From contig CAMYMU010000068.1 in the NCBI GenBank assembly GCA_947259575.1, positions 1-64,000 on the forward strand: a stretch of 64,000 bases of DNA, read 5' to 3'. Every line of letters begins with the position of its first letter. Position 1 is the first letter of the stretch. The notes under the pieces were generated by a model, which was given only the letters and a program-made list of their open reading frames with translations, ran no database searches and was not told where the DNA came from. The position numbers were made by a program, and so were the translations under genes. Source of the DNA: an uncultured Ectothiorhodospiraceae bacterium (GTDB lineage: Bacteria; Pseudomonadota; Gammaproteobacteria; UBA6429; Thiohalophilaceae). This document shows positions 35,299 to 62,421 of the stretch, one piece after another.

Positions 35299-35663
35299 TA
35301 CTACTCCTTTTATGTAAATATTGAGAAATGCTCCACACGCTCATTGCGGGGTAAAACGCTGTTCTGTTGCGGGTCAAAGGTTACTCCCAAATTGTCACAA
35401 CCCTTCGCGTATCCATATGCCGACACGCTCCATGATTGCTCATACCTGTTTGTTACCTGCAACTAGCAACAGCACTTAGTTATGCCGCGGGCAATTAGCA
35501 TGCTGTAGCATCGAATACGCCTGATTCGCCACAATCCGAAGATCAAGACTTATAATTTGTTTCCAACCCACGGGAGCATTTCCCGTTGTGTGGTTTTACC
35601 CACCGTAAATGCGGATTCGAACCGCGAGGCTTTCGCCTTTTCCATCATCAGCGTTAAAGGCTG
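35299..35663 (-). other. Non-coding stretch with tRNA-like fragment
   Basis: No ORF is supported. At 35611-35626 the minus strand has a perfect T-arm (GCGG, loop TTCGAAT, CCGC), preceded at 35627-35638 by a hairpin AGGC-GAAA-GCCT. Variable arm plus T-arm is what the 3' half of a class II tRNA looks like, but I find no matching 5' half next to it. A GGGA/TCCC-type hairpin follows at about 35566-35585. The rest may be 5' leader of the slipin mRNA. It could be a degenerate tRNA or a small tRNA-like RNA. Confidence 0.4.
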
Positions 35664-35736
35664 CGAGAAGAACGGGACTTGAACCCGAAACACACTGTTT
35701 ATCAGACAGTTGCTCTACCCATTGAGCTATCTTCAC
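35664..35736 (-). tRNA. tRNA-Ile(GAU)-like, degenerate
   Basis: Cloverleaf with anticodon loop CTGATAA (U33, GAU) and stem ACTGT/ACAGT. The acceptor has 6 of 7 pairs (a T-T mismatch at position 2). The discriminator G is followed by CAG, so CCA is not encoded. It stands apart from the main array, downstream of the HNH gene, and duplicates the GAU anticodon found at 38397-38472. Confidence 0.7.
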
Positions 35737-36028
35737 TGGTGCATTTGGGCATCTATCGTTTTGTATACACCTTGCGATCCCTTCCGGTTAGCTTCAGTGC
35801 ACAGGTCAGGCATTCCGAACCTGAACCGCTAAACAAATACATGTAACCAAGCGCTTCTGAATCACGTGTTATCTCAACACGCAATCACAATTCTTTATGG
35901 TGATTTAACGTGCGACCAGCCAACTGAAAATAACCAGGCTGGCCACACGAGATACCAGGACCACCTCCTCTAACTACTGAACAAATTGTCACGTCGTTCC
36001 TTCGGTCGTTACGCACATCCATGTGCTC
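35737..36028 (-). other. Non-coding stretch between HNH gene and tRNA-Ile
   Basis: No ORF is supported. The right end (about 35998-36028) belongs to a hairpin repeat also found at 38481-38630. Elsewhere I see potential local stems, for example CAGG/CCTG around a loop near 35815, but no complete tRNA. It may be structured leader or spacer RNA. Confidence 0.35.
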
Positions 36029-36060
36029 TCACGACACTTGTACGTCCCTGTACTTCGGGC
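35996..36060 (-). repeat. Hairpin repeat, copy A (overlaps HNH 3' end)
   Basis: Two short hairpins, GCAC-atccat-GTGC (36013-36026) and GTAC-gtccct-GTAC (36040-36053), with surrounding sequence collinear with 38481-38545 in the tRNA array (shared TTCC, GGTCG, CTCTC, CGACA and GTAC-TCCCT-GTAC blocks). The second hairpin lies inside the HNH reading frame, so the last residues of that protein are encoded by the repeat. Confidence 0.6.
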
Positions 36061-36595
36061 ATTGGGCCTTCAAGAACGCCATCTGATCCGCACTAATGTG
36101 ACGGTTTCGTAAAATCAACCATTCCGCATGGTTTGGTGTATAAGGCACAGCATGAAGGCGCATATTCGTTTCGCTTAATAGCTGGTCCGCTTTACGCTGG
36201 TTACACGCACGACATGCCGTAACAACATTTGTCCAAATATTTCGACCACCACGTGAAATCGGTACAACGTGGTCACGTGTTAAGTGACGATCGCCTAAAC
36301 TAGTTAAACAATACATACAGGTATGACCATCACGTTGGAACAACTCGCGGTTGTTTAGCGTAGGTACTGTTCCAAATACCGAACGACCCTGGTCACCCTG
36401 CACAGCGATAATCGGGTGAATGTCCATATATGAGCGTGCATTACTCACACGGTTAACACCGCCGTAAAAACGCAATGTCTGGTCACCCAATGTCCATGCA
36501 ACCTGATCCTTGGCGTAATACAACACGGCATCCCGCCAATGGATCCAACTAACCGCCTGGCCACCTTGACTCAACTGTAAAATCAATGGTGTCAT
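36029..36595 (-). CDS. HNH endonuclease
   Basis: A 188-aa protein with a central HNH domain (about residues 95-150). CMYCLTSLG and CRACNQRK supply the zinc CxxC pairs, LTRDHVVPISRGGRNIWTNVVTAC is the HNH beta-beta-alpha core, and the N-terminal region is a separate domain of unknown fold. AGGAGAAGG precedes the ATG. HNH nucleases often accompany tRNA arrays in phages as homing enzymes, and related genes occur in cellular genomes. Here it lies inside the tRNA unit; a role in array mobility or RNA/DNA cleavage is inferred. Confidence 0.85.
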   Translation of the reverse strand: MTPLILQLSQGGQAVSWIHWRDAVLYYAKDQVAWTLGDQTLRFYGGVNRVSNARSYMDIHPIIAVQGDQGRSVFGTVPTLNNRELFQRDGHTCMYCLTSLGDRHLTRDHVVPISRGGRNIWTNVVTACRACNQRKADQLLSETNMRLHAVPYTPNHAEWLILRNRHISADQMAFLKAQCPKYRDVQVS

Positions 36596-36634
36596 CCACC
36601 TTCTCCTATCATTTATAACTTGGTTAAAATTTTG

Positions 36635-36663
36635 GCTCTTTACTAATTTGGGAAGTGTTTAAT
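36635..36663 (+). repeat. 29-bp inverted repeat, left copy (with boxA-like start)
   Basis: This 29-bp segment matches the reverse complement of 39696-39724 at 27 of 29 positions. It starts with the boxA-like GCTCTTTA and contains a 19-bp identical core. The two copies face each other across the main tRNA array. Its junction falls immediately beside a truncated tRNA-Ser (36677-36701). Confidence 0.75.
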
Positions 36664-36676
36664 ATTGAGGAAGATT

Positions 36677-36701
36677 CTTTAAACCACTCAGCCATCTCTC
36701 C
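36677..36701 (-). pseudogene. Truncated tRNA-Ser (5' part only)
   Basis: The minus strand begins GGAGAGATGGCTGAGTGG, the typical 5' acceptor strand and D-arm of tRNA-Ser, but the similarity stops after about 25 nt. No anticodon arm or 3' half follows; instead the left 29-bp inverted repeat begins within 15 bp. The original anticodon cannot be read. The rearrangement that created the inverted repeat may have destroyed the gene. Confidence 0.6.
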
Positions 36702-36707
36702 TGTACT

Positions 36708-36793
36708 TGGTGCGCCCGGTCAGATTCGAACTGACATTCCTTAAAGGAGCCAAATTTTAAGTTTGGTGCGTTTGCCAATTACACCACGGGCGC
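36708..36793 (-). tRNA. tRNA-Leu(UAA)
   Basis: Class II tRNA; anticodon loop CTTAAAA with stem CCAAA/TTTGG, acceptor GCGCCCG/CGGGCGC, long variable arm, CCA encoded. Last tRNA of the main array. Confidence 0.92.
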
Positions 36794-36798
36794 TTTAT

Positions 36799-36874
36799 TG
36801 GTCGTGACCCCTGGATTTGAACCAGAATCTTCAAGATTATGAGTCTTGTGCTTTTCCACTTAAGCTAGATCACG
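36799..36874 (-). tRNA. tRNA with CAU anticodon (Met or Ile2)
   Basis: Anticodon loop CTCATAA, stem CAAGA/TCTTG, acceptor CGTGATC with one G-U pair, CCA encoded. It lacks the C1-A72 mismatch and GC-rich anticodon stem of an initiator. Elongator Met versus lysidine-modified Ile2 cannot be decided by eye. Confidence 0.88.
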
Positions 36875-36878
36875 TGTT

Positions 36879-36954
36879 TGGTACCGCAGGTTCGATTCGA
36901 ACAAACATCCCCATGATTTGGAGGCATGTGCTTTACCAATTAAGCTACTACGGC
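36879..36954 (-). tRNA. tRNA-Trp(CCA)
   Basis: Anticodon loop CTCCAAA within stem CATG/CATG plus one mismatched pair, acceptor GCCGTAG with G-U pairs, CCA encoded. Only 4 bp separate it from the next gene. Confidence 0.85.
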
Positions 36955-36987
36955 ATAAAGTAGGTGGCGCACAATGCGCCACCGAAG

Positions 36988-37218
36988 TTACATAATGTTT
37001 TGAGTTTGCTTTGCCATATGCAGGGCTTTTATCTGTTTACGGATATAGCGCATCATCAGCATTGCCTTTTCTTCGGCACCAAAAGTGGCAGAACTCGCAT
37101 CGTCAATCGGCACAGGAAAGTTAAACCCATCTTCCGTCTCATAGTGCAATGCACTGTCACGATAAAATACAAACCTGACTTTCTTATCGTTCGATACCAT
37201 TTCTTTAAGCGTTAACAT
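36988..37218 (-). CDS. Small hypothetical protein inside the tRNA array
   Basis: A 76-aa protein between tRNA-Gln and tRNA-Trp, with AAGGAG 7-8 bases before its ATG. Composition is ordinary and soluble (KKVRFVFYRDSALHYETEDGFNFPVPIDD then a helical C-terminus). I do not recognise it. Its placement in an intact inter-tRNA gap with a good ribosome binding site supports real translation from the tRNA transcript. Confidence 0.7.
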   Translation of the reverse strand: MLTLKEMVSNDKKVRFVFYRDSALHYETEDGFNFPVPIDDASSATFGAEEKAMLMMRYIRKQIKALHMAKQTQNIM

Positions 37219-37235
37219 GCTATCTCTCCTTTCGT

Positions 37236-37310
37236 TGGCAGGGGATCCTGGGATCGAACCAGAACTACGAACTTCAAAGGCTCGTGTGCTACCAGTTACA
37301 CCAATCCCCT
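37236..37310 (-). tRNA. tRNA-Gln(UUG)
   Basis: Anticodon loop CTTTGAA, acceptor AGGGGAT/ATCCCCT, discriminator G, CCA encoded. Confidence 0.9.
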
Positions 37311-37321
37311 AGTATAAAAAT

Positions 37322-37398
37322 TGGTGCGCCCCCTCGGAGTCGAACCGAGAAAACACTGGGTCTAAGCCAGCGGCGTATGCCAGTTCCGCCAGGGGCGC
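37322..37398 (-). tRNA. tRNA-Leu(UAG)
   Basis: Anticodon loop CTTAGAC with stem GCTGG/CCAGT, acceptor GCGCCCC/GGGGCGC, CCA encoded. UAG here is the anticodon reading CUN leucine codons, not an amber suppressor. Confidence 0.9.
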
Positions 37399-37405
37399 AA
37401 TAAAT

Positions 37406-37481
37406 TGGCGCGCCTGTGAGGAGTTCAACCTCAACCTCCCACCTTCGCACGGTGGTGCTCTTGCAATTAAGCTACAGGCAC
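37406..37481 (-). tRNA. tRNA-Arg(GCG)
   Basis: Anticodon loop GTGCGAA with stem CCACC/GGTGG, acceptor GTGCCTG/CAGGCGC, CCA encoded. T-loop reads TTGAACT, so the usual C56 is G. Confidence 0.87.
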
Positions 37482-37643
37482 TAAATTGGTCGGTCGCGAA
37501 GGATTCGAACCTTCACCTGCCTGATTAAAAGTCAGGTGTGCTACCATTACACCAGCGACCAGTTTTTCTTTCTGTTTTTCTCGTTTCTCTTTTTCCTTTC
37601 GAATACGTCGCAACAAAATGCGTTGCTTCATGCTGAGTTTCAT
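37467..37643 (-). CDS. Small lysine-rich ORF reading into tRNA-Lys
   Basis: A 58-aa frame starting at ATG 37643 behind the very strong site AAGGAGGTG. The first 29 residues are extremely basic (RKEKEKREKQKEKL). The frame then continues through the whole tRNA-Lys gene before a stop. Either a short basic peptide whose own stop was lost, or an mRNA-like spacer. It resembles the ORF at 38675-38941 in composition and position. Confidence 0.45.
   Translation of the reverse strand: MKLSMKQRILLRRIRKEKEKREKQKEKLVAGVMVAHLTFNQAGEGSNPSRPTNLVPVA
37487..37561 (-). tRNA. tRNA-Lys(UUU)
   Basis: Anticodon loop CTTTTAA with stem CCTGA/TCAGG, acceptor TGGTCGC/GCGACCG, CCA encoded. Overlapped by the reading frame of the small basic ORF at 37467-37643. 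Confidence 0.9.
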
Positions 37644-37661
37644 GGAACACCTCCTTTTTGT

Positions 37662-37736
37662 TAGCGCACCCAGTAGGATTCGAACCACATCTATTTGGTT
37701 AGAAGCAAAATGCTTTTCCAGTTAAGCTACAGGCGC
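37662..37736 (-). tRNA. tRNA-Arg(UCU), 3' end CTA
   Basis: Anticodon loop CTTCTAA; anticodon stem has one T-C mismatch. Acceptor GCGCCTG pairs with TGGGTGC, then discriminator G and CTA in place of CCA, so CCA would have to be added after trimming. Confidence 0.82.
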
Positions 37737-37750
37737 ATTGACAAGTAAAT

Positions 37751-37826
37751 TGGTGCGCTCAGCAAGACTCGAACTTGCATCACTCTGTTTCGAAGACAGA
37801 TGCTTTTCCAATTAAGCTACAAGCGC
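37751..37826 (-). tRNA. tRNA-Arg(UCG)
   Basis: Anticodon loop CTTCGAA with perfect stem TCTGT/ACAGA, acceptor GCGCTTG, canonical TTCGAGT T-loop, CCA encoded. Confidence 0.9.
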
Positions 37827-37835
37827 AGAATATTT

Positions 37836-37933
37836 TGGCGGAGAGACAGAGATTCGAACTCAGACACCTGCGCTGCAGGCCCTCTGTTTTCAAGACAGTC
37901 GCCGCTACCCAGAATCTTTAGGCTTACCTCTCC
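37836..37933 (-). tRNA. tRNA-Ser(UGA)
   Basis: Class II tRNA; anticodon loop CTTGAAA, acceptor GGAGAGG with CTCTCC, discriminator G, CCA encoded. The D-arm region is longer and more irregular than usual. Confidence 0.85.
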
Positions 37934-37938
37934 GTATT

Positions 37939-38012
37939 TGGTCGTCACCGTCAGAATCGAACTGACACATCCTGTATGTAACACAGGTGTTCTACCGTTA
38001 AACTAGGCGACA
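37939..38012 (-). tRNA. tRNA-Val(UAC)
   Basis: Anticodon loop GTTACAT with stem CCTGT/ACAGG, acceptor TGTCGCC/GGTGACG, T-loop TTCGATT, CCA encoded. Confidence 0.88.
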
Positions 38013-38021
38013 GTGAATGCT

Positions 38022-38198
38022 TCACGCATAGGGTCGAATCAACCGCAGTAAATCTTGAAGCTTGGGGTTGTTACGGTTGTCAATCCATGCATTGGCAAGC
38101 AACCACCTTAAGTTTGGTTGCGTGGGTACGGTTCTATTCGCAGGCACATTCAGCTGATCAATGAGCCGTCTGAATCGGTTTATTTCGATGTTATTCAT
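38022..38198 (-). CDS. Small hypothetical protein inside the tRNA array
   Basis: A 58-aa protein (MNNIEINRFRRLIDQLN ... RLIRPYA) between tRNA-His and tRNA-Val, with AAGGAG 6-7 bases before ATG. It ends just before tRNA-Val without overlap. Helical, basic and soluble. Family not recognised. The clean fit between two tRNAs and the good ribosome binding site support it. Confidence 0.65.
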   Translation of the reverse strand: MNNIEINRFRRLIDQLNVPANRTVPTQPNLRWLLANAWIDNRNNPKLQDLLRLIRPYA

Positions 38199-38217
38199 AA
38201 CGAACTCCTTTTGTGTT

Positions 38218-38294
38218 TGGGGCGACCGGCCGGATTTGAACCCGCATCTTCATGCTTCACAGGCATGGGCTTTACCAATTAAGCTAAGGCCACC
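38218..38294 (-). tRNA. tRNA-His(GUG)
   Basis: Anticodon loop CTGTGAA with stem CATGC/GCATG. An extra 5' G (G-1) faces C73, the histidine identity element. CCA encoded. One mismatch each in T-stem and acceptor. Confidence 0.85.
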
Positions 38295-38312
38295 ATTGAA
38301 TAAATATTAAAT

Positions 38313-38390
38313 TGGTCTGGGTGATAGGATTTGAACCTATGACATCTCCGTTCCAGGCGGAGTACTCTGGCCAGGCTGAGCTACACCCAG
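38313..38390 (-). tRNA. tRNA-Pro(UGG) with C33
   Basis: Anticodon stem CTCCG/CGGAG encloses loop CCTGGAA, so position 33 is C instead of the nearly universal U. Acceptor CTGGGTG/CACCCAG, discriminator A, CCA encoded. Confidence 0.87.
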
Positions 38391-38396
38391 TTAAGT

Positions 38397-38472
38397 TGGT
38401 ACCTCGATCTAGATTTGAACTAGAAACTTGCGATTATCGGTCGCACGTTTTACCAAATTAAACTATCAAGGC
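38397..38472 (-). tRNA. tRNA-Ile(GAU) with C33
   Basis: Anticodon stem TGCGA/TCGCA encloses loop CCGATAA, again with C at position 33. Acceptor GCCTTGA/TCGAGGT has G-U pairs; CCA encoded. Followed upstream by the hairpin repeat at 38481-38630. Confidence 0.87.
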
Positions 38473-38480
38473 ATTGGTGA

Positions 38481-38630
38481 ACCGTTCCGGTCGCTCCGGG
38501 CTTCCTGCCCTCTCGCGACATTCGTACATCCCTGTACATCGGACTCGACAATTTTGTCGGGAGCAAAATTGGCCGCGCATTGCGCGCCCGAAGGGCACAG
38601 GCCATGGATGGCCTGTGGCAACCCGCACAG
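38481..38630. repeat. Hairpin repeat, copy B (in tRNA array)
   Basis: Four successive hairpins: GGGC-ttcct-GCCC, GTAC-atccct-GTAC (38524-38537), AATTTTG-tcgggag-CAAAATT (38550-38570) and CACAGGCC-atggat-GGCCTGTG (38596-38617). The GGGAG loop flanked by an A/T-rich stem and the later GGAT loop recur downstream of tRNA-Met (50217-50283) and tRNA-Gln (62005-62074). It fills the gap between tRNA-Asp and tRNA-Ile and contains no ORF of its own. Confidence 0.65.
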
Positions 38631-38674
38631 ACTAACTTGAAGGGCTAGTTACTTTGGCCAATTTGTATACCGGT

Positions 38675-38941
38675 TCATATTTTGGCGCGCTGGAAGGGAT
38701 TCAAACCCTCATTCCCTTGATCGACAGTCAAGTGCTTTATCATTAAGCTACCAGCACCGTTGAATGGTGTTTTTAAATAACACTGAATCAATGTCATTAA
38801 AGAACACCACTCTTTTTTCAGCTTCTGTTTCTCGCCTTTGCGCTTTGCCTTATTGTTCTTTTCATGTACACCACCCTTTCGCATCAATGGATGGTTATGA
38901 AAAGGGTTACGCGCGTTAGACTTATGATTACTATTTGCCAT
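38675..38941 (-). CDS. Small basic ORF reading into tRNA-Asp
   Basis: An 88-aa frame from ATG 38941, preceded by AAGGAGAAG. The first 50 residues are Lys/Asn/His-rich (KAKRKGEKQKLKKEW). The frame then runs on through tRNA-Asp before ending. Same design as 37467-37643. Uncertain as a protein gene, but the ribosome binding site is too good to ignore. Confidence 0.45.
   Translation of the reverse strand: MANSNHKSNARNPFHNHPLMRKGGVHEKNNKAKRKGEKQKLKKEWCSLMTLIQCYLKTPFNGAGSLMIKHLTVDQGNEGLNPFQRAKI
38683..38757 (-). tRNA. tRNA-Asp(GUC)
   Basis: Anticodon loop CTGTCGA with stem CTTGA/TCAAG, acceptor GTGCTGG/CCAGCGC, discriminator G, CCA encoded. T-loop TTTGAAT has U56 in place of C56. Confidence 0.88.
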
Positions 38942-38965
38942 TTCACTTCTCCTTCGTTTAAGAAT

Positions 38966-39041
38966 TGGTGGAGCTGAGAAGATTTGCACTTCCAATTTCC
39001 TGCTTGCAACACAGGCACTCTACTAGTTGAGTTACAGCCCC
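38966..39041 (-). tRNA. tRNA-Ala(UGC)
   Basis: Anticodon loop GTTGCAA, acceptor GGGGCTG/CAGCTCC with the G3-U70 pair that specifies alanine. CCA encoded. T-loop TGCAAAT has G at position 55. Confidence 0.9.
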
Positions 39042-39050
39042 GTTAAATTT

Positions 39051-39138
39051 TGGTGGATTGCCTAGGACTCGAACCTAGATATGTCTGAGACTCCTGGTTT
39101 ACAGTCAGGTGGTGCCAGCCTATCGCACCGCGCAATCC
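39051..39138 (-). tRNA. tRNA-Tyr(GUA)
   Basis: Class II tRNA; anticodon loop CTGTAAA, acceptor GGATTGC/GCAATCC, long variable arm, canonical TTCGAGT T-loop, CCA encoded. Confidence 0.9.
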
Positions 39139-39143
39139 AAAAT

Positions 39144-39218
39144 TGGCTCCCAGGGTTGGACTCGAACCAACATACAGCTCCTTAACAGGGAGACCACCTA
39201 CCCATGGTGCATCTGGAA
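39144..39218 (-). tRNA. tRNA-Asn(GUU)
   Basis: Anticodon loop CTGTTAA with stem CTCC/GGAG, T-loop TTCGAGT, discriminator G, CCA encoded. One mismatch at the base of the acceptor stem. Confidence 0.87.
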
Positions 39219-39225
39219 TAAAAAT

Positions 39226-39301
39226 TGGTACAACGGGATGGAATTGCACCACCAACGCGCTGAGCTTCAATCAACCGCTCTACTATTTGAGCTACCGTTG
39301 T
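39226..39301 (-). tRNA. tRNA-Phe(GAA)
   Basis: Anticodon loop TTGAAGC with stem GTTGA/TCAGC, acceptor ACAACGG/CCGTTGT, CCA encoded. T-loop TGCAATT has G55; position 37 is G and 38 is C, unlike usual tRNA-Phe. Confidence 0.82.
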
Positions 39302-39463
39302 ACTTATTTGTTATACGAGCTGGCTTCCCACAACCAGCACCCGAGAGGTTTCCCCCGTGACTTTTCTTTACTTACCCTTGTGCTGTTAGACAGATTTGAT
39401 TAACACCACAACAGGCTAAAAGCCCAACCAAGTGCTGTCACACTTTCGTATAACAAATAAAGT

Positions 39464-39540
39464 TGGAGCTGATGGCATGGACTTGCACCTGCATCTTGTC
39501 GCTTACAAGGCGACAGCTTTACTAATTAAGCTACATCAGC
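39464..39540 (-). tRNA. tRNA-Thr(UGU)
   Basis: Anticodon loop CTTGTAA with perfect stem GTCGC/GCGAC, acceptor GCTGATG/CATCAGC, CCA encoded. The T-arm is irregular (TGC in place of TTC). A gap of 162 bp without a gene precedes tRNA-Phe. Confidence 0.86.
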
Positions 39541-39549
39541 AACATAAAT

Positions 39550-39623
39550 TGGAGCGGGTACAGAGATTCAAACTCTGACCAAGAGGTTGGAGGCCTCGCA
39601 TGCTATCGTTACACCACACCCGC
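39550..39623 (-). tRNA. tRNA-Gly(UCC) with C33
   Basis: First tRNA of the array. Anticodon stem CGAGG/CCTCT encloses loop CCTCCAA, with C33. Acceptor GCGGGTG with CCCGC, discriminator T, CCA encoded. T-loop TTTGAAT has U56. Confidence 0.86.
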
Positions 39624-50187: not shown

Positions 50188-50216
50188 TTTAAGATGGTAG
50201 CGAGGGGGAGACTTGA
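50188..50216 (-). repeat. Duplicated 3' end of tRNA-Met
   Basis: 29 bp identical to 50358-50386, exactly 170 bp away. It comprises the 3' acceptor strand, CCA and part of the T-arm of tRNA-Met plus a few downstream bases. Weaker similarity continues about 30 bp further. The layout (tRNA 3' end repeated 170 bp downstream) parallels the 178-bp tyrT repeats of E. coli. Confidence 0.8.
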
Positions 50217-50283
50217 CCATTTTGCATGGAGCAAAATGGGACAGCGAAGCTGCCCGCAGGGTGGCGCACACGGAAGTGCGCCA
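50217..50283. repeat. Hairpin repeat, copy C (downstream of tRNA-Met)
   Basis: Three hairpins: CCATTTTG-catggag-CAAAATGG (50217-50239), a CAGC/GCTG stem (50242-50252) and TGGCGCAC-acggaa-GTGCGCCA (50262-50283). The first matches copy B in stem composition and GGAG loop. It lies between the tRNA-Met gene and its duplicated 3' end. Confidence 0.65.
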
Positions 50284-50364
50284 TCAACTCGACCGAAGCA
50301 TTAAATCAGTGAGGTCGGGCAAGTTTATAGCTTAGAAATAGAATGATGATATAGGGTTTTAAGA

Positions 50365-50441
50365 TGGTAGCGAGGGGGAGACTTGAACTCCCGACCTCAG
50401 CATTATGAATGCTGCGCTCTAACCAGCTGAGCTACCTCGCC
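50365..50441 (-). tRNA. tRNA-Met(CAU), elongator
   Basis: Canonical cloverleaf: acceptor GGCGAGG/CCTCGCT (G1-U72), anticodon loop CTCATAA region with stem GCATT/AATGC, T-loop TTCAAGT, CCA encoded. Unlike the array tRNAs it is close to the usual gammaproteobacterial consensus, so it is the cell's ordinary gene. Confidence 0.93.
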
Positions 50442-61966: not shown

Positions 61967-61999
61967 GCGCTCTATATATATGGCTGGGGTGCCAGGATT
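61967..61999 (-). repeat. Duplicated 3' end of tRNA-Gln
   Basis: 33 bp identical to 62142-62174 at a distance of 175 bp. It contains the acceptor 3' strand, CCA and part of the T-stem of tRNA-Gln plus the A/T-rich bases just downstream. Same design as at tRNA-Met. Confidence 0.8.
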
Positions 62000-62004
62000 A
62001 TTCC

Positions 62005-62074
62005 GGGCATCCTGCCCTCCACCCTATGGCCTGCTCGCTTTGCTTGCAGTTCGATTTCGCTCCCGGCGAAATCG
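62005..62074. repeat. Hairpin repeat, copy D (downstream of tRNA-Gln)
   Basis: Hairpins GGGC-atcct-GCCC (62005-62017) and CGATTTCG-ctcccgg-CGAAATCG (62052-62074). Read on the minus strand, the second has loop CCGGGAG, like copies B and C. It lies between tRNA-Gln and its duplicated 3' end. Confidence 0.6.
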
Positions 62075-62155
62075 TCGAACCAATTCCTCGGTTCTCACCC
62101 TGGCTTAACCAGTACAACTCATTTTAGAGTCTGAGTTTCCAGCGCTCTATATATA

Positions 62156-62230
62156 TGGCTGGGGTGCCAGGATTCGAACCTGGGAATGCTGGAATCAAAA
62201 TCCAGTGCCTTACCGCTTGGCGACACCCCA
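62156..62230 (-). tRNA. tRNA-Gln(UUG)
   Basis: Canonical: acceptor TGGGGTG/CACCCCA, discriminator G, CCA encoded, anticodon loop TTTTGAT region with stem CTGGA/TCCAG, T-loop TTCGAAT. Between ispE and prs, its usual place. Confidence 0.93.
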
Positions 62231-62343: not shown

Positions 62344-62385
62344 GAAACCCTCTGGGTTTCATGCAGTATTTCCTACGCTGCGCTA
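62344..62385. repeat. Hairpin repeat-like sequence between ispE and tRNA-Gln
   Basis: A perfect GAAACCC-tct-GGGTTTC hairpin (62344-62360) is followed by a GTAGCGCAGC-type inverted repeat on the minus strand. It resembles the A/T-stem plus GGAG/CTCC-loop unit of copies B-D, but less closely. Confidence 0.4.
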
Positions 62386-62421
62386 CGGTTACACCCCAAT
62401 AAATCTATACTAAACAATCAG

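Follow-up and report, generated by a model that had tools for sequence, protein, structure and literature searches.

The doubled 3′ end of tRNA-Gln in the window (the whole 64,000-nucleotide stretch that was analysed, from a contig of an uncultured Ectothiorhodospiraceae bacterium) was found to be one instance of a real and recurrent arrangement, in which an intact stable-RNA gene is accompanied by a short hairpin core and a second copy of its own end. The design matches that of the tyrT repeats of Escherichia coli, and the Rfam model of the corresponding RtT RNA is not satisfied by it. From the anatomy of the units and from their presence or absence at related sites, we infer that, on a modest balance of probability, the repeat was left by a small non-coding insertion element, which would prefer stable-RNA genes and keep them whole by means of target duplication.

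A perfect 33-bp repeat of the tRNA-Gln 3′ end with a spacing of 175 bp had been reported in the initial annotation, and was confirmed by an exact match between positions 61967-61999 and 62142-62174 on the minus strand, the spacing being measured from start to start. The locus and its immediate upstream region comprise the following features.

62156..62230, minus strand: intact tRNA-Gln(UUG), CCA encoded (ARAGORN; Rfam RF00005, 64.5 bits)
62142..62174, minus strand: first direct repeat, nt 57-75 of the tRNA (its last 19 nt) and 14 bp of 3′ flank (exact 33-bp match)
62090..62103, minus strand: inverted T-arm copy (INV), CCAGGGTGAGAACC, an imperfect reverse complement of the tRNA-Gln T-arm (sequence reading; aligned with the INV of 32 other units)
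61998..62081, minus strand: core with flanking T-loop piece GGTTCGA, hairpins, in the orientation of tRNA-Gln (models R2 and R1)
61967..61999, minus strand: second direct repeat, the copied 3′ end with 14 bp of flank, identical to the first
62368..62389, minus strand: element of a second, REP-like family, upstream of tRNA-Gln (pattern ACCGNAGCNNAGCGTAGGAAAT, 0 mismatches)

In its own genome, the tRNA-Gln core was matched by R2, a core-only model, with 81.7 bits (E 7.6e-18), and positions 61987-62106 were matched by R1, a whole-unit model, with 85 bits; the sequence is contained in both models, and the E-values of R1 and R2 are rough. A GTAG tag marks the foot of REP palindromes; the sequence GCGTAG, present by eye in some cores (e.g. 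at L054), is absent from the tRNA-Gln core. A short stretch resembling the 5′ end of tRNA-Gln (GGGGTGT, 62391-62397) is located just before the REP-like element, and may be due to chance.

The same design had been claimed for tRNA-Met, at which an exact repeat of 29 bp with a spacing of 170 bp was indeed identified (50188-50216 and 50358-50386).

50365..50441, minus strand: intact tRNA-Met(CAU), at which the design recurs (ARAGORN, Rfam)
50358..50386, minus strand: first direct repeat, nt 56-77 of the tRNA and 7 bp past CCA (exact match)
50310..50319, minus strand: INV, CCCGACCTCA (10 nt), the reverse complement of TGAGGTCGGG in the tRNA (sequence reading)
50210..50286, plus strand: core, in the orientation opposite to the tRNA (R2 63.7 bits, E 3.7e-13; sequence contained in R2)
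50188..50216, minus strand: second direct repeat, the copied 3′ end (exact 29 bp)

With its 10 nt, the INV of tRNA-Met is shorter than the cut of the INV scan (11 nt). R1, which was built without the tRNA-Met unit, gave 21.8 bits (E 0.012) at this locus.

A scan of the other tRNA genes for partial 3′ copies, as proposed in the initial annotation, was performed on the genome, which contains 52 Rfam tRNA matches and, in the loci used, 52 ARAGORN genes. Twenty of the latter belong to an array in the window (35.6-39.6 kb) that was excluded from all rates, leaving 32 tRNA genes; one of these, a tRNA-Pro(CGG) gene on contig C39, ends where the contig ends, leaving nothing downstream to search, and is possibly identical to the other tRNA-Pro(CGG) gene. 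With a copy defined as 13 nt or more from the final 30 nt of the tRNA recurring exactly within 300 bp downstream, 11 of the 32 genes were shown to carry one, compared with 0 of 32 in the upstream flanks of the same genes. Comparison of each tRNA end with the downstream region of another tRNA returned 11 of 992 pairs: six (27-30 nt) represented the neighbouring tRNA gene itself, one (20 nt) fell between the two tRNA-Pro(CGG) entries and four were 13-15 nt in length. Chance similarity as the source of the copies was ruled out by these upstream and cross-tRNA controls.

The 11 genes represent nine amino acids and exhibited spacings of 160 (Asn), 161 (ThrCGT), 170 (Met), 175 (Gln), 176 (SerGCT and ThrTGT), 188 (ArgTCT), 199 (LeuCAA), 201 (His), 202 (ProCGG) and 257 bp (LeuTAA). 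The anticipated range of 160-190 bp was therefore observed for seven of the copies, the other four being wider and extending the full range to 160-257 bp. The related hairpin repeat that had been noticed inside the tRNA-Gln repeat corresponds to the conserved core, which was found by the model at eight of the 11 copies. At LeuTAA, Asn and ThrCGT no R2 core match was obtained; LeuTAA holds three copies of the second, REP-like family, and Asn and ThrCGT have no match to either family. The suggestion of a recurring mechanism, rather than of two chance island scars, is supported by the 11 copies and by the eight with one core family, and is further backed by copies of at least 13 nt in relatives (6 of 21 tRNAs in the congener G003 and 8 of 37 in G021, from another genus of the family) and by the same anatomy at E. 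coli tyrT.

Integrase islands in tRNA genes are similar to the units in leaving a whole tRNA and a duplicated 3′ end, and the copies could represent scars of integrase-borne islands or satellite phages that shrank to their attachment ends. PMC9897764 describes tRNA 3′ ends as classic attachment sites and tRNA fragments as arising from islands, and one island-type tRNA-Glu fragment was observed on contig C41. In contrast to such islands, however, the inserts between the repeats at the 11 copies are gene-free and measure about 140-235 bp, too short to hold an integrase gene between the direct repeats. Moreover, a core, in one orientation or the other, breaks the copied end at the T-loop, and eight of the copies, at tRNA genes for various amino acids, share one core. 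Given the short gene-free inserts and the common core, island scars are disfavoured and considered highly improbable.

At E 0.1, R2 detected 12 places in its own genome, ten of which have a tRNA gene within 400 bp, with one (C41) located, by eye, after a tRNA-Glu 3′ fragment and one (C49) alone. The model was built from 22 sequences, including nine of these 12 places, and the scores consequently lean towards those nine; ArgTCT, ProCGG and the core in the tRNA array are outside the model. On C41 (L126, about 1420-1470), the tRNA-Glu 3′ fragment of ~50 nt is followed by a terminator and, behind it, by a unit of its own (by eye), and is apparently an island attachment scar which carried its element along.

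At the eight copies with a core, the core was shown to be oriented with the tRNA at Gln, SerGCT, ArgTCT and ProCGG, and against it at Met, LeuCAA, ThrTGT and His. When read in core orientation, its left neighbour is usually Y-GA, situated in the T-loop (TCA at the His and ProCGG copies of this genome); the Y-GA motif is present on both strands of the T-loop, and both strands are used. The His copy has an extra hairpin between core and copied end. A mirror layout was observed at tRNA-Ser(TGA) of G021, where a 23-nt 5′ copy ending in GGTCGA is followed by the core and then by the intact gene; SerGCT of the present genome likewise displays, by eye, a mirror layout, but with no repeat of 11 nt.

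Direct repeats of at least 11 nt were found across 20 of the 28 cores examined, for instance with lengths of 33 bp at Gln, 29 at Met, 58 at SerTGA of G021, 73 at ProTGG of G003 and 21 at 5S, and longer ones at tandem arrays. None was found at the remaining eight, i.e. C49 and the upstream core of SerGCT in the present genome, L226 and L233 (both G021), G003 C32, two fragment-linked G003 cores and the core in the tRNA array. Among five lone cores, target duplication of at least 11 nt was absent from four, and reached only 11 nt at L228. These lone cores indicate that duplication may be tied to the surroundings of an RNA gene rather than to insertion itself, or may show only where a gene was rescued; the putative target duplication characterises RNA-gene sites, with none clear elsewhere.

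The third core of the window is located within the tRNA array.

38542..38620, plus strand: core, 63 bp behind tRNA-Asp and in opposite orientation (R2 51.1 bits, E 6.9e-10; outside the model)

By eye, this core divides a T-arm-like GCGGGT/TCGAGTCCG that is not the T-arm of the neighbouring tRNA-Asp, and no direct repeat of at least 11 nt was found across it. The array itself (35663-39623) encompasses 20 tRNA genes (ARAGORN) of many isotypes in ~4 kb, all on the minus strand, the other chromosomal tRNA genes being scattered; it perhaps originated in a mobile element or phage. When the window was searched against Rfam, tRNA was the sole family above its cut-off.

A complete unit consists, in order, of an intact tRNA, flank (with a terminator in some), the INV, a short T-arm piece (e.g. 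GGTTCGA), a hairpin core of ~80 bp, the remaining T-arm, the acceptor strand, CCA and flank. The INV, which often stands before the core and reads as the T-arm region in reverse complement, was exact over at least 11 nt at four of the 11 copies in the genome (SerGCT, LeuTAA, ArgTCT and ThrTGT), and was by eye shorter or imperfect at Met, Gln and Asn. Behind tRNA-Lys (L041), a 12-nt inverted T-arm copy is present ~54 nt beyond the gene with no 3′ copy, and perhaps represents a decayed unit.

For a structural comparison, 39 units with at most two mismatches between copy and gene were extracted, of which six near-duplicates were dropped (ProCGG and the second unit of L084, with no recognisable INV, L086, containing N, and L065 and the first unit of L063, both too long, were not extracted). 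The resulting alignment of 33 units covers eight gene kinds (Gln TTG and CTG; Ser GCT, GGA and CGA; Tyr; Arg TCT; tmRNA), two of the units being from E. coli tyrT. In the consensus structure, an outer helix links the INV with the copied T-stem, with which the INVs of all 33 units, including that of tRNA-Gln, were aligned as pairing. In this helix (helix 1), 87.9% of cells are paired, and changes on both sides were observed at four of eight pairs. Changes on both sides were counted in 60 cells, compared with 22.3 after shuffling, and none of the 500 shuffles reached 60. Another of the five covariation measures, the count of pairs with two-sided changes (8 of 18), did not exceed shuffles (77 of 500).

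The hairpins were shown to contain 54 C(GNA)G triloops (54 of 88 triloops), compared with 0.66 in shuffles, and nine GNRA tetraloops, compared with 1.26, with the remaining hairpin classes likewise above shuffles; these loop counts come from 39 homologous sequences. C(GNA)G triloops are unusually stable in DNA. By eye, CsrA-type GGA loops are visible in some hairpins, and core hairpin loops at L065 and L063 harbour GACGTACAGG...GAGCGAC-like insertions, i.e. nested elements.

The original RtT paper is reportedly that of Bosl and Kersten from 1991. The 178-bp repeats at E. coli tyrT (RtT RNA, Rfam RF00391, rttR), present in four copies in K-12, display the same anatomy as the units of the window, consisting of an inverted T-arm GGGGAAGGATGAGAAGC, GGTTCGAC, hairpins, CCCGAAGGGC, GAGT, and then AATCC to the CCA of tRNA-Tyr with flank. 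Two of these E. coli units were alignable with the unit of the window and, as at tyrT, the units of the window immediately follow a tRNA and include a second copy of its 3′ end. The Rfam RtT model (cut-off 45 bits) returned no match at the Gln and Met units up to E 5; at SerGCT it gave 34.5 bits (E 0.0028) over the full model length, below its cut-off, which was the only RtT match among ten loci searched with lax Rfam settings. Compared with RtT, the copies described here follow 11 tRNA genes, with cores pointing either way, and related genomes also have them behind 5S rRNA and tmRNA.

Alternatively, the unit could be an RtT-like RNA gene, in which read-through past the tRNA would yield a small RNA whose 3′ end is matured in a tRNA-like manner, with the INV pairing with the copied T-stem and thereby sparing the tRNA. 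Consistent with this, E. coli rttR, annotated at 1287066-1287236, terminates (by arithmetic) with the final A of the first copied CCA, and two RtT-family RNAs, located upstream of the Asn and Lys tRNA genes of Actinobacillus, were detected by RT-PCR according to PMC4986893. The pairing and two-sided changes in helix 1 point in the same direction, as do the final 16 nt of the copies, which are identical to those of the gene in 35 of the 39 units (preselected for at most two mismatches), and the lack of a rule-based terminator before 28 of 32 first copies. Conversely, the reversed cores at Met, LeuCAA, ThrTGT and His would specify complementary RNA, and a terminator does separate gene and unit at four of the 32 first copies by the same rule and, by eye, at ThrTGT, Asn and ProCGG of the present genome and at the 5S rRNA. 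Covariation alone is also no proof of selection on RNA, because one strand is copied from the tRNA: an INV copied from the gene would pair and covary even with no selection, and the pairs changed on both sides were not above shuffles. An RNA gene is accordingly regarded as a rather unlikely explanation of the unit as such; an RNA role alongside insertion is possible, as both can coexist. With only four of 32 first copies showing it, a terminator between gene and unit was rejected as a general rule.

Sites in related genomes were shown to vary in occupancy and in target. The set of tRNAs bearing copies differs between congeners, and in G021 a core with no tRNA was found behind the 5S rRNA (Rfam 104 bits), beyond its terminator, with a 21-bp copy of the 5S end; here, the 5S is split after CATGTGA, and its end AGTAGGTCACCGCCAGGCTTT follows the core. 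A unit behind tmRNA was identified in another genome. Of four G003 cores, one is located behind a tRNA (by program), two abut, by eye, fragments of tRNA-Glu and tRNA-Pro, and one is alone; 14 of the 20 G021 cores are linked to tRNA or 5S by context or coordinates.

Among 30 loci fetched downstream of tRNA-Gln, units were present by eye at 14, including that of the window, and absent from 16, and three congeners have no unit behind tRNA-Gln. L061, from a second genus, is an empty site at which the sequence beyond CCA corresponds to that found beyond the copy in L060 and L062. Behind tRNA-Met, the present genome has one unit, G001 has two in tandem (the outer with two mismatches) and G002 (70% complete) has none. 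Tandem arrays of identical or near-identical units were observed at L066 (three units by coordinates), L068 (two) and L055 (at a contig end).

Such arrays, together with that of E. coli tyrT, would also fit plain tandem duplication, in which replication slippage doubled the tRNA 3′ ends and the hairpins were merely its cause, and the same applies to the lone cores with no duplication and to the three copies with no core. Local duplication cannot, however, create the one alignable core that is common to different tRNAs, 5S rRNA and tmRNA, and slippage is therefore considered improbable.

With R1 at E 0.001, matches were obtained in at least 117 of 276 gammaproteobacterial genomes and at least 98 of 216 genera, these counts being lower bounds, as 13 candidates were scored per genome. 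At E 1e-6 in the phylum, R1 matched 51 of 299 genomes, 23 of them outside the class and belonging to two families, with 22 in one (the outside-class total is not stated). In the class, 26 of 29 R1 loci are positioned behind a same-strand tRNA (one at a distance of 617 bp, in a tandem array) and three at contig edges; with 11 of 11 further loci also behind a same-strand tRNA, all 37 placed loci of other genomes are on the tRNA strand, a linkage and strand bias that is partly built in, since R1 was built from such units and contains T-stem columns.

The Rfam RtT model matched 33 of 143 genomes at E 0.01, seven of them above its cut-off, and 1 of 14 controls (E. coli). Its 12 best loci had a tRNA or tmRNA in all 12 cases and a 3′ copy with at most two mismatches in 11. 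When named genomes were scanned by pattern, the tRNA-Gln end was found doubled in 28 stretches, of which 18 represent the unit and ten are ordinary tandem tRNA genes. Four of these 18 (L108, L109, L113 and L117) have, by eye, a different-looking core combined with the same layout and inverted T-arm, three belonging to two genomes of Desulfuromonadales or their relatives, one of which is Pelovirga terrestris, and the fourth to Candidatus Aphodovivens (a coriobacterium, Actinomycetota), which hints at selection on the layout itself.

IS200/IS605 elements insert after a fixed short motif, carry hairpins at both ends and cause no target duplication. The units are similar in their apparent insertion after a fixed short motif and in their hairpins; they differ in that no Y1 gene was linked to the core in the 30 loci compared. 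Direct repeats of at least 11 nt surround 20 of the 28 cores, with none around eight, including four of the five lone cores. No match to the Y1 transposase (PF01797) was found in the present genome (E 1e-5, with six candidates scored in a genome of 95.85% completeness), and no core was present in any of 30 regions surrounding the class's strongest Y1 genes; on both grounds, a Y1 transposase was rejected as the engine. Y1 genes are present in 89 of 117 genomes with the unit and in 89 of 159 without (odds ratio 2.5, p 6e-4; genome size and ancestry uncontrolled).

REP elements, BIMEs and REPINs, which are mobilised by RAYT Y1 transposases, are likewise short, hairpin-rich and non-coding. PMC2965389 reports a link between rtT and BIMEs in enterobacteria, and PMC3733652 treats GTAG repeats. 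In contrast to REP elements and REPINs, about a dozen copies were found here by model, nearly all at stable-RNA genes, with gene ends duplicated and no Y1 gene found. The second, REP-like family (pattern ACCGNAGCNNAGCGTAGGAAAT, at most two mismatches, with a GCGTAGG head) was detected at eight places in the genome, and the reversed control pattern at none. By coordinates, seven of the eight places are within about 250 bp of tRNA genes; the family is located in the window (62368-62397) and on contigs C5, C33, C47 and C32. Two of its elements flank tRNA-Thr(UGU), nt 1-39 of which are repeated upstream, directly before one of them. The proximity of this family to tRNA genes suggests that tRNA genes are used by at least two element families in this genome.

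The units carry the 3′ part of their target twice (roughly 14 to 70 bp of tRNA 3′ end and flank), with an intact gene beside the core. If they result from insertion, the core would be mobile DNA that acts as a folded single strand and picks Y-GA in the loops of structured-RNA genes. Repair of the insertion would re-copy the 3′ end and flank, so that the tRNA remains functional, and a fold-back copying step could leave the inverted T-arm behind. Unequal exchange between the direct repeats may then lead to tandem arrays or to clean loss, and would help to keep the copy identical to the gene.

Insertion is favoured by the contrast between downstream (11 of 32) and upstream (0 of 32) flanks, by the alignable core at eight of 11 copies and by its two orientations. 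The empty site at L061, the one, two or no units behind tRNA-Met, the variation between congeners and the 5S and tmRNA targets also argue for it, as do the mirror layouts (SerTGA of G021 and, by eye, SerGCT), the C(GNA)G triloops and the second family at tRNA genes. The lone cores with no duplication, the failure to identify an enzyme, the three copies with no core, the 37 of 37 R1 loci on the tRNA strand (R1 being built from such units), the different-looking cores that share the layout, the excess of every hairpin class over shuffles and the homology of the loops counted argue against it.

No description of tRNA-, tmRNA- and 5S-linked insertions of this kind was found in our full-text literature searches. 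It is conceivable, although we give this somewhat less than even weight, that the units represent a widespread, unrecognised class of miniature mobile DNA specialised on the loops of stable-RNA genes (tRNA, tmRNA and 5S rRNA), which would recognise folded single-stranded gene ends and not a particular sequence, insert either way and carry or regenerate the missing end, making many different tRNAs available as targets. The E. coli tyrT repeats would then be its first-described member, and the cores from Desulfuromonadales and Coriobacteriia would indicate that the strategy arose repeatedly. Direct tests are feasible, as empty and filled sites exist within one genus, both orientations are available and E. 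coli K-12 has four units. tRNA genes are classic docking sites of mobile DNA, and an integrase is usually tied to one tRNA sequence. If the proposal is true, one short core using many tRNAs, tmRNA and 5S rRNA, and leaving all of them intact, would represent another way of living in essential genes, and would explain in a natural way the E. coli tyrT repeats, treated as a source of small RNA in the literature consulted.
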